DNA of 64,000 nucleotides from Parasporobacterium sp. (GTDB taxonomy: Bacteria > Bacillota > Clostridia > Lachnospirales > Lachnospiraceae), in assembly GCA_017459985.1 (NCBI GenBank), contig JAFUBX010000037.1, positions 1 through 64,000 of the forward strand, given 5' to 3'. Under the pieces are notes generated by a model, which was given only the letters and a program-made list of their open reading frames with translations, searched no databases and was not told where the DNA came from. Of the stretch, positions 391-37,030 are shown in pieces. The translations under genes were made by a program, and so were the position numbers. Every line of letters begins with the position of its first letter. Position 1 is the first letter of the stretch.

Positions 391-590
391 AAAATATATT
401 TCCCTGCTTCACCAGACAGCGGCGGTTGTAAACCAGCTTAATCCGAATCTCCGCTATTATGAAAACGGTTGTTTTGAGCATTCACTATCCTTAAATGAGG
501 CATTCGGAATATATGAGATATCCGGCGGCAATTAAAAGGGATATCCGGCGTAGATTGCGGAAGATGATTAAACACCCAGGGTGCAGAAGC

Positions 591-657
591 GCCAAATATT
601 GCAGCAGTGCGTGAGATTTTCGGTAGCACTTGACGAAAAAATGCAGCATTGCGGTAA
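591..657 (+). repeat. GCAATGC element, degenerate copy A
   Basis: Only the last two motif units of the 220-bp element are recognisable here: a diverged TGCAGCAGTGCG..ATTTTCGG unit, then GACGAAAAA and the right terminus GCATTGCGGTAA. The left terminus is missing. The copy lies beyond the 3' end of azlD. Confidence 0.75.
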
Positions 658-5695: not shown

Positions 5696-5728
5696 CATGC
5701 GGAAAACGGACAGTTCGAAAAACGCATG
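5696..5728. repeat. CATGCG/CGCATG 33-nt hairpin
   Basis: CATGCG (5696-5701) and CGCATG (5723-5728) enclose GAAAACGGACAGTTCGAAAAA-like interior sequence. The same layout occurs at 23150-23181 and 62184-62216. Here and at 23150 it directly flanks a GCAATGC element. Confidence 0.7.
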
Positions 5729-5755
5729 ACATTCCAACAGGATGCAGGGGGTATG

Positions 5756-5975
5756 TACCGCAATGCTCGATGTTTTTGACAACTGCTGCCGAAAAAATGC
5801 AGCAATGCGTGAGATTTTCGGCAGACGCCCTCGAAAGCCCCGGTTTTTGCCGAAAAAATGCAGCATTGCGTGAGATTTTTGACAGAAACGGCTCTCTGAG
5901 AGTCTCCTTGCCGAAAAAATGCAGCATTGCGTGAGTTTTTCGTCAAGCCTGCCGAAAAAATGCAGCATTGCGGTA
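5756..5975 (+). repeat. GCAATGC element, copy B (220 bp)
   Basis: A full-length copy. The left terminus TACCGCAATGCT and right terminus AGCATTGCGGTA are inverted. Inside, four motif units of the form GCCGAAAAAATGCAGC start at 5788, 5849, 5910 and 5951, that is, 61, 61 and 41 bases apart. Units 1-3 continue into GTGAG and a T-run, and unit 1 ends in TTTTCGGCAG, so it can fold into a hairpin. The spacer between units 2 and 3 carries the small palindrome CTCTCTGAGAG. It lies between the VTC-operon terminator and the SGNH hydrolase gene. Confidence 0.9.
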
Positions 5976-15430: not shown

Positions 15431-15592
15431 TTACCGCAATGCTCGACATTTTTGACAGCGGCTGCCGAAAAAATGCAGCAATGCGTGAGATTTTTGGCAG
15501 AAATCGTCCTCTGAGAGCCCCATTGACGAAAAAATGCAGCAATGCGTGAGATTTTCGACAGCACCTGCCGAAAAATTGCAGCATTGCGGTAA
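15431..15592 (+). repeat. GCAATGC element, copy C (one unit deleted)
   Basis: Both termini (TTACCGCAATGC and GCATTGCGGTAA) are intact, but the copy is 162 bases long, about 59 fewer than the full form. It retains three motif units and lacks the first spacer and second unit, as expected from recombination between internal repeats. It fills most of the gap between the J-domain gene and the convergent minus-strand gene. Confidence 0.88.
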
Positions 15593-22921: not shown

Positions 22922-23142
22922 TTACCGCAATGTTCGATGTTTTTGACAGCGGCTGCCGAAAAATTGCAGCAATGCGTGAGATTTTCGGCAGACAGCCTCG
23001 ATAGACCCGGATTTTGCCGAAAAAATGCAGCATTGCATGAGATTTTCGGCAGAAAGGGGTCTCTGAAAGCTTTATTGACGAAAAATTGCAGCAATGCGTG
23101 AGTTTTTCGACAAGGCCTGCCGAAAAATTGCAGCATTGCGGT
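22922..23142 (+). repeat. GCAATGC element, copy D (221 bp)
   Basis: A full-length copy with left terminus TTACCGCAATG and right terminus GCATTGCGGT. It has four motif units and the same spacer order as copies B and E, including CCTCGATAGACCCGGATTT-like spacer 1. It lies between mtnN and a Nudix gene in the same orientation as both. Confidence 0.9.
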
Positions 23143-23149
23143 CAACGAT

Positions 23150-23233
23150 CATGCGGAAAATGGAAACTTGAAAAACGCATGACATTGCAGCCGGAAAAGT
23201 CATGCGGAAACTGATAATTTCGAAAAATACATG
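23150..23233. repeat. CATGCG/CGCATG hairpins, two tandem copies
   Basis: The first copy (23150-23181) is intact and resembles 5696-5728. The second (23201-23233) begins CATGCGGAAA and ends in a decayed ACATGAC. Both are followed by ACAT. They sit directly after GCAATGC element D. Confidence 0.7.
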
Positions 23234-23281
23234 ACATCAGAAGCTTGGCTGACGGGAGTTGCAGGAGGTAATGGTTCAGGA

Positions 23282-25910: not shown

Positions 25911-26022
25911 TTATTTTGAGTCTTCTGCACCTTGGGTAGGTGCCTTCCCTGCTGTTGGAGGTGCCATAAAGTCCATGCTGCCGTTGACTTCATTCATACT
26001 TGCTTTCGTCATACCATTTGGA
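25911..26022 (-). pseudogene. Possible 3' remnant of a lost gene
   Basis: On the minus strand a frame ending in TAA at 25911 encodes about 37 protein-like residues (including NGMTKASMNEVNG and FMAPPTAGKAPTQ) before it runs, at its 5' side, straight into the 118-bp palindrome array. The composition is unlike the repeats and unlike translated noise, so it may be the C-terminal end of a gene cut by the array. No family is recognised. Confidence 0.25.
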
Positions 26023-31638: not shown

Positions 31639-31652
31639 CCGCCCGGGCCGTT

Positions 31653-31767
31653 GGGATTGTCGGGATCGCCGGGTTCTCCGGGCCGTCCGGGTCTTCGGTA
31701 TCGTCTGGCGTCGGGACCGCCGGGATTGCCGGGATCGTCGGGATTGCCGGGTTCGTCGGGCCATCGG
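31653..31767. repeat. Degenerate 9-bp G-rich minisatellite
   Basis: Beginning 15 bases after the cobS stop, units close to GGGATTGCC repeat at a 9-bp period with drift. One plus-strand frame reads as a collagen-like Gly-X-Y string, which I regard as a by-product of the 9-bp period. Confidence 0.75.
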
Positions 31768-31788
31768 ACAGGGGCTTTGCAAGGCGAA

Positions 31789-32038
31789 TACCGCAATGCT
31801 CGATATTTTCGGCAACGTTACCGCAATGCTCGACATTTTTGACAGCGGCTGCCGAAAAAATGCAGCAATGCGTGAGATTTTCGGCAGACACCCTCGAAAG
31901 ACCCGGATTTTGCCGAAAAAATGCAGCAATGCGTGAGTTTCTTGGCAGAAACGCCTCTCAGAGAGACTCCTTGCCGAAAAATTGCAGCAATGCGTGAGAT
32001 TTTCGGCAGAGGCTGCCGAAAAATTGCAGCATTGCGGA
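31789..32038 (+). repeat. GCAATGC element, copy E with extra left terminus
   Basis: The 221-base core (31818-32038) has four motif units and both termini, though the right end reads GCATTGCGGAA. A second left-terminus copy (TACCGCAATGCTCGATATTTTCGGCAA type) precedes it at 31789-31817, as if part of another element had been duplicated or inserted. The element ends 22 bases before the CobC-like gene start and reaches its ribosome-binding region. Confidence 0.9.
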
Positions 32039-36756: not shown

Positions 36757-36976
36757 TTCCGCAATGCTGCAATTTTTCGGCAGGTGCTGTCGAAAATCTC
36801 ACGCAATGCTGCAATTTTTCGTCAAGGAACCTCTCTGAGAGGCGTTTCTGTCAAAAATCTCACGCAATGCTGCAATTTTTCGTCAAAATCCGGGGTCTCG
36901 AGCGGGCTTTGCCGAAAATCTCACGCATTGCTGCATTTTTTCGGCAGCCATTGTCAAAAACGTCGAGCATTGCGGT
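36757..36976 (-). repeat. GCAATGC element, copy F (220 bp, inverted)
   Basis: The only copy in the opposite orientation. Its length (220) equals that of copy B, and all four motif units and the CTCTCTGAGAGG spacer palindrome are present. It lies between two divergent promoters (36673-36646 on minus and 37105-37133 on plus) without disrupting either. Confidence 0.9.
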
Positions 36977-37030
36977 AGATCACCCGTCAGCAGCACCTCC
37001 GGCAGCCGGGACCGATGGGGTATAGAGGAA

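Follow-up and report, generated by a model that had tools for sequence, protein, structure and literature searches.

Between the genes of the window, by which we mean the whole stretch of 64,000 nucleotides that was analysed, lies a short repeated element in full, shortened and truncated forms. The window is part of contig C127 in a draft genome of 3,528,620 bases in 131 contigs (completeness 94.75, contamination 4.98). The element copies and the termini of a second repeat, repeat B, are located as follows:

573..593, + strand: terminus of repeat B (CACCCAGGGTGCAGAAG), adjoining a truncated element copy
591..657, + strand: truncated copy, with part of the last dyad and the right end
5756..5975, + strand: full 220-bp element (left end 5756-5781; dyads 5787-5823, 5848-5884 and 5909-5945; right end 5950-5975), used as the query for the blastn search of its own genome
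15431..15592, + strand: 162-bp form, short of one 61-bp module
22922..23142, + strand: full element, flanked by a PNP_UDP_1 and a NUDIX gene
25922..25938, − strand: terminus of repeat B away from element copies
31789..31817, + strand: solo left half-end adjoining a full copy
31818..32038, + strand: full element, flanked by a CobS and a histidine-phosphatase gene
36757..36977, − strand: full element, inverted, between divergent genes

The five copies and one fragment claimed in the initial annotation are all present, far above chance: the terminal 13-mer, with ≤ 2 mismatches allowed, occurs 15 times in the window compared to 1.24 expected and a maximum of 5 in 100 shuffles. Several of their outlines were revised. 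What had been taken as one copy at 31789-32038 is a full element preceded by an extra left half-end, the copy at 15431-15592 is present but lacks one module, and the fragment at 591-657 is a truncated copy that adjoins the end of another repeat. The inverted ends, described at first as exact, are exact at 15431-15592, but in the other copies they are one base off at one or both ends.

Anatomy and conservation of the element

The element consists of five GCAWTGC cores spaced 42, 61, 61 and 42 bp apart, which form three 37-bp dyads, bounded on either side by an inverted half-site end. This plan replaces the four hairpin units and the motif spacing of 61, 61 and 41 proposed earlier: the four units are the three dyads plus the right half-site, and the left end is a fifth site. 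In 29 copies of equal length, the order is the left end TACCGCAATGCTCGAYRTTTTTGACA, a 5-nt spacer, a 37-nt dyad, a 24-nt spacer, a second dyad, another 24-nt spacer, the third dyad, a 5-nt spacer and the right end TGMCGAAAAWWTGCAGCATTGCGGTA. The two ends are imperfect inverted repeats with the outer sequence TACCGCAATGC. Mean pairwise identity among these 29 copies is 0.91-0.95 in the dyads, 0.90 in the ends and 0.50-0.61 in the spacers. Most dyad columns are invariant and a few are near 50:50, in particular the central A/T of GCAWTGC, which is free within the dyads and fixed in the ends.

Spacing is rigid. Across 40 elements, successive cores are 61 bp apart 59 times and 42-43 bp apart 74 times, with other values 18 times; 42 and 61 bp correspond to about 4 and 6 turns of the DNA helix. 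Modules are gained and lost in whole 61-bp steps, and the spacers drift at nearly fixed length. That this is a defined dispersed element whose module order is kept between copies, as had been claimed, is supported. Furthermore, dyad divergence stays at ~0.08 throughout while spacer divergence climbs from 0.28 to 0.54, and in the two closest pairs of copies it is 0.05 compared to 0.14 in the spacers. Since dyad divergence is flat as the spacers diverge, the dyads look constrained to a plateau. Concerted evolution within copies was considered and set aside, the signal being weak (4 shared rare variants vs 0.66 expected, 3 of 2000 permutations).

For alignment, 40 copies were taken, of which L040 could not be trimmed; 30 of the remaining 39 are of exact length. 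L015 is absent from the identity, mutual-information, concerted-evolution and divergence analyses and is present, mis-oriented, in the flank analysis and in the core-spacing and TA counts. L011 is a duplicate of L009 and was dropped after the identity analysis, except in the flank analysis.

Copy number and forms in the genome

A blastn search of the draft genome with the copy at 5756-5975 gave 41 same-sense rows. These correspond to at least 40 distinct places, because a longer element on contig C24 was matched twice, and the count is a lower bound since 40 of 87 first-look candidates were scored. The similarity is therefore not limited to the window loci, an outcome that the initial annotation had said would refute it. 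In addition, a degenerate pattern of the element terminus has 95 mismatch-free matches in the genome, many of them outside full copies; with ≤ 2 mismatches, it matches 177 times forward and 168 times in reverse, compared to 0 and 1 for a reversed-pattern control.

The element occurs in forms of 53, ~95, ~160, 220 and 342 bp, in a second architecture and as fragments. The 53-bp form consists of the two ends only (L063, L069 and L073, the last with extra half-ends), the ~95-bp form has one dyad, the ~160-bp form two, and the 342-bp form (L034) five. The second architecture (L061; L065, which is the same as L076; L068; L074; L075) carries nested half-ends in its middle. The 53-, ~95- and ~160-bp forms and the second architecture were read from 20 of the terminal-pattern places. 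One pair of elements, on contigs C37 and C12, has identical flanks of 1,500 bases and, judged by this identity, is probably one locus assembled twice. Identical or near-identical stretches were also seen between contigs C43 and C12 and between C44 and C125, as well as between C37 and C12; they probably reflect double assembly of single loci or a strain mixture in the draft.

The claim that copies avoid genes stands for 39 of the 40 elements, which are intergenic according to a crude gene caller (60 nt of overlap allowed); the remaining one lies in a low-scoring ORF. The element had also been said to have no ORF of its own. Mechanical ORFs do cross copies on both strands, but a coding score sees a gene through only 1 of 40. 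Flanking genes are in tandem at 25 elements, convergent at 7 and divergent at 7, with 1 'inside' the weak ORF, compared to 210 tandem, 33 convergent and 54 divergent among 297 gaps of > 50 bp (raw counts from the crude caller); no orientation of the flanking genes is clearly preferred. No family of neighbouring genes around the elements is larger than three, and a Pfam scan of ten chosen neighbour genes detected no transposase.

Flanks and insertion sites

Similarity between copies largely ends at TACC...GGTA. Beyond TACC, the left flanks of 39 copies are near random, and the right flanks show a weak AATC preference over the ~4 nt that follow GGTA. The element at window position 22922 (L003) and L007 have spacers that differ by 0.138 and share no flank match of ≥ 40 nt. 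At L010, L012, L016 and L018 (noted together with L041), common flanks of 57-251 nt at ~81-90% identity suggest a larger composite repeat with the element inside it, so some copies would have spread within longer duplications. From these alignments, the element seems both to be copied by itself and to travel within longer duplicated DNA. Of 38 copies, 19 have TA both before and after CCGC...GCGG, and direct duplications of 3, 4, 5, 6, 8, 9 or 10 nt do not exceed shuffled pairing in any case.

We compared the window sites with G006, the closest same-genus genome by CobS identity (74% vs ≤ 59% for the others). The gene before site 22922 has no gap behind it in G006 (−3 nt, compared to 330 nt here), and at site 36757 a gap of 170 nt without an element corresponds to 612 nt here. 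Synteny is broken at sites 591 and 15431, and the comparison with G006 gave no base-exact empty site.

A mobilizing enzyme or parent transposon was not found by three approaches: Y1_Tnp genes in the own genome, rve integrases in the genus, and element ends inspected by eye. The draft genome contains two Y1_Tnp genes, which do not adjoin element copies and whose 3,363-base loci contain no GCAWTGC core; the ORF that follows them is, by eye, a candidate TnpB-like gene. At ten rve integrase loci of the genus, there is no cluster of either the 220-bp element or the G006 repeat described below, and no coding stretch between exact element ends was seen by eye among the 95 mismatch-free ends of the 131-contig draft.

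Test for RNA structure

Each dyad can form a 9-bp stem (TGCCGAAAA/TTTTCGGCA), which is paired in 93.1% of cells. To examine pairing, we used an alignment of 34 of the 40 copies (A1; L011 and five length variants omitted). None of the 45 pairs in two models, 27 in dyad hairpins and 18 in stems between dyads, shows a compensatory, two-sided change in these 34 copies, and none of the hairpin-model measures exceeds its shuffles; pair 159/191 is unpaired in 29 of the 34. A structured RNA, which had been offered as an alternative at first, is therefore not supported. Mutual information was computed for 2,850 column pairs in 28 copies, and permutation of the best 60 gave 15 pairs at p ≤ 0.002, mostly in spacer 2 or between neighbouring columns, plus a few distant ones; the best Watson-Crick excess has z = 2.5. 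The covariation in spacer 2 comes largely from a small subtype (columns 142/148 are TA in 20 and CG in 3 of 28 copies). Rfam has no match to the element at gathering scores; below them, there are six matches up to E = 5, the best being MIR8007 with 23.2 bits vs a cut-off of 195. The structured-RNA reading is largely refuted.

Distribution beyond this genome

None of 40 relatives, 13 of the same genus, contains a blastn match to the element, and the terminal pattern with ≤ 1 mismatch is absent from all 13 same-genus genomes. A 20-base pattern has 4 lone matches in genome_contigs (~85,000 species genomes) and 3 in viral_contigs, which are taken as chance because all have unrelated flanks; plasmid and phage collections contain no match. 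These scans cover one genome per species, and records of the source genome or its near kin may be excluded from them. Among the species searched, the element is confined to one. Words of its sequence have no match in the literature searched, in which one unrelated plant paper contains a 13-mer of the G006 repeat unit. The earlier statement that no named family has this sequence thus agrees with Rfam, the plasmid and phage collections and this word search.

A different repeat family in a sister species

In G006, the CobS gap that corresponds to window position 31789 holds a repeat of a different family. It consists of tandem 30-nt units (TGCACAAAAANTCCGWTTGTGTACG, core GATTGTGTACG) on one side and inverted units on the other, and it spans 200-204 bp from first to last unit at 9 of 19 loci. 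A one-copy search detected 19 loci in G006 (L163-L181) and 3 in G012 (L182, L240 and L241), and none in the own genome or in the other 11 same-genus genomes. A scan for 13-mer repeats (~89 kb from G006, 118 kb from G001) gave nothing comparable, in a sample that also missed the G006 repeat; G001 yielded one 17-nt repeat, present five times.

Each of the 3 G012 elements has a G006 ortholog, and the surroundings of the two align; the repeat is inherited vertically here, with gain or loss of whole units. In the orthologous elements, 231 of 261 unit positions are identical compared to 248 of 328 in the middles (Fisher 7e-5), the units being marked by their match to the motif in G006. As the repeat is vertical and its units are conserved above the middles, the repeat may function as a binding-site array. 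The surroundings, coding and non-coding mixed, have identities of 0.84, 0.90 and 0.86, compared to 0.87, 0.93 and 0.83 in the units.

Four gene gaps hold the own element here and an element of the G006 repeat there:

G006 C2, window 31789: both flanks
G006 C145, window 5756: both flanks, one at only 46% identity
G006 C188, own C97:82743: both flanks
G006 C135, own C124:35568: one flank

Counted by ortholog gene ends, 6 are shared, 8 are occupied in G006 only, 8 in the own genome only and 99 in neither (Fisher p = 0.0014; the ends are not independent). Collapsed by hand to gaps, the rough counts are 4, 6, 7 and roughly 60 (Fisher p = 0.031), in stretches picked because they contain elements. 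The own element is absent from 6 of 10 testable G006 element gaps. We regard the shared gaps as suggestive. A further candidate, G006:C36 with own C100, was ruled out because the elements lie at opposite gene ends, and was not counted. Homology between the own and G006 units was also considered; a shuffle gave p = 0.037 but p = 0.30 with the A-tract part fixed, so homology is not demonstrable and was dropped.

Interpretation and relation to known repeats

We favour, with moderate confidence, the reading that the element is a non-autonomous, modular and mobile interspersed repeat of the REPIN/BOX kind. Observations in its favour are the many scattered copies with similarity that mostly ends at TACC...GGTA, the inverted half-site ends, the whole 61-bp steps between forms, the conserved dyads beside drifting spacers of nearly fixed length, the restriction to one species among those searched, and the lack of an element at sites 22922 and 36757 in G006. 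An enzyme encoded elsewhere would bind the GCAWTGC dyads, and the five helically phased sites would bring together a complex that places new copies in intergenic DNA, perhaps at TA; the fixed spacing would then reflect the geometry of the replicating complex. Copies that lose dyads would stop replicating, so that in the living population the dyads would be kept and the spacers diverge, as proposed for REPINs. In the REPIN population view, selection for replication alone leads to conserved dyads and drifting spacers. Several observations count against a mobile repeat: the three approaches above gave no enzyme or parent transposon, neither a target duplication beyond TA nor a base-exact empty site was seen, dyad divergence saturates near 0.08, which in-place selection also fits, the flanks of L010, L012, L016 and L018 are shared, and four gaps are common with the G006 repeat.

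REPINs and BOX elements are nearest in kind. REPINs and REP sequences are described, in the sections cited, as inverted palindromic doublets with a short spacer, which are extragenic, form clusters and insert into or beside each other (PMC3116915). The element here shares these features, and the ends of REPINs are more conserved than the spacer, as in our element (same sections of PMC3116915). A GTAG or CGTC tag beside the palindrome is a REPIN/RAYT feature, and such tags are named in the title of PMC3733652. In contrast, no such tag stands at the foot of the dyads, which begin with TGCC or TGAC, and the ends read TACCGC; moreover, no RAYT partner was seen, and three internal dyads lie at fixed spacing between half-site ends. 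Given these two points, the lack of the tag and of a visible RAYT partner, we do not file the element as a REPIN. The BOX elements of Streptococcus pneumoniae are 67-637 bp long and built of boxA, boxB and boxC, with target duplications reported and an RNA fold proposed, according to the cited part of PMC3049150. Like BOX, which is thought to be parasitic there, our element is modular, has a variable number of middle modules, and is dispersed and nearly lineage-limited (PMC3049150). The likeness to the BOX elements of that account concerns the modular plan only, as the element differs in lengths and anatomy and no RNA fold is supported.

The main rival, which we consider possible but distinctly less probable than a mobile repeat, is that the elements form arrays of sites, spread over the chromosome, to which a host DNA-binding protein would bind; the 30-nt-unit arrays of G006 and G012 would be their counterpart. 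Selection would hold the dyads and helical phase the spacing, and from species to species the sites would change along with the protein. The saturated dyad divergence and the spacing, rigid although the spacers drift, agree with such arrays. So do, by analogy, the G006/G012 repeat, which is inherited vertically with gain or loss of whole units and has units more conserved than its middles, and the four gaps that hold the own element here and the other family in G006. On the other hand, the DNA around the G006/G012 elements is conserved to much the same degree as their units, neither a gene orientation nor a gene type is clearly preferred, the units of the two families are not significantly alike with the A-tract part fixed, 6 of 10 testable G006 element gaps lack the own element, and window sites 22922 and 36757 have no element in G006; long gaps could favour both families, and the stretches compared were chosen for their elements. 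A stronger version seems rather unlikely to us: the own and G006 repeats would be two versions of one chromosome-wide system of phased sites for a fast-evolving DNA-binding protein, retained at several common gaps although the sequence of the sites was exchanged between species.

It is unlikely that the element is a MITE in the sense of a deletion derivative of a DDE-type transposon with a TA target, whose full-length parent would have been lost or remained unassembled. IS630/mariner-like transposons are of the DDE type and have TA targets. The ends TACCGC...GCGGTA, the TA on both sides in half of the copies and the 53-bp form of two ends only would suit such an origin, and terminal inverted repeats with a coding gene called through a single element are MITE-like. 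But no exact pair of ends surrounds a coding stretch by eye, the search for DDE enzymes being one for rve only, and three internal dyads are not a usual feature of MITEs. The REP/MITE-like label of the initial annotation thus holds for a dispersed repeat of that general kind, but as a classical MITE the element is not secured, since no target duplication is longer than TA and inspection by eye showed no parent transposon. The BrickBuilt MITE of Porphyromonas gingivalis has 23-nt tandem repeats without spacers and 19 copies in one strain, in the passages cited (PMC4596501). It resembles our element in being species-limited and intergenic, with repeats between small inverted ends (PMC4596501), but as far as those passages describe it, differs in that the dyads here are separated by spacers of conserved length.

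A structured RNA or bidirectional terminator acting in transcripts is the weakest explanation and very improbable: the well-paired dyad stem and some covarying spacer-2 columns speak for it, but compensatory change and an Rfam gathering match are lacking, the spacer-2 signal is largely that of a subtype, and convergent gaps, at 7 of 40 elements vs 33 of 297 gaps, bear against a terminator.

The element adds a family whose spacing is unusually regular and helix-like to the small interspersed repeats, a group for which both movers and functions are largely open. Because the sister-species repeat occupies some gaps in common with it, one can test whether repeats of this kind are parasites or arrays of sites co-evolving with a protein.

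Repeat B and other neighbouring repeats

The element is accompanied by repeat B, which often sits in it. Repeat B is 0.7-1.3 kb long with inverted ends CTTCTGCACC...GGTGCAGAAG, and in eight examples (L080, L082, L083, L089, L095, L097, L101 and L107) its longest stop-to-stop frame is ≤ 144 aa. Its terminal pattern occurs at 46 places in the genome. In the stretches examined, 40 distinct matches to the terminus were found, 2 of which look like chance by sequence; 20 of the remaining 38 adjoin an element copy (≥ 21 of 24 bases), an upper estimate because part of the DNA was chosen for holding the element. In a control, 3 of 150 random 60-mers reached 19 of 24. The junctions lie mostly within A/T tracts of the dyads or ends, and repeat B often adjoins or interrupts the 220-bp element. 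REP sequences are reported, in the part of PMC1525189 cited, as targets preferentially entered by insertion sequences. The entry of repeat B into the element resembles this behaviour (PMC1525189), although repeat B, unlike the insertion sequences of that account, shows no long reading frame.

Two other repeats were noted beside element copies. A third short repeat of ~40-50 nt (CATGCGGAAAA...AAAACGCATGACAT) lies at window positions ~5704-5750 and 23143-23240, next to copies of the element, and similar flank matches recur at several element copies. In addition, a degenerate tandem repeat of the CCGGGATTGTCGGGATCG type, seen by eye at 31645-31780, directly follows the CobS gene and precedes the element.
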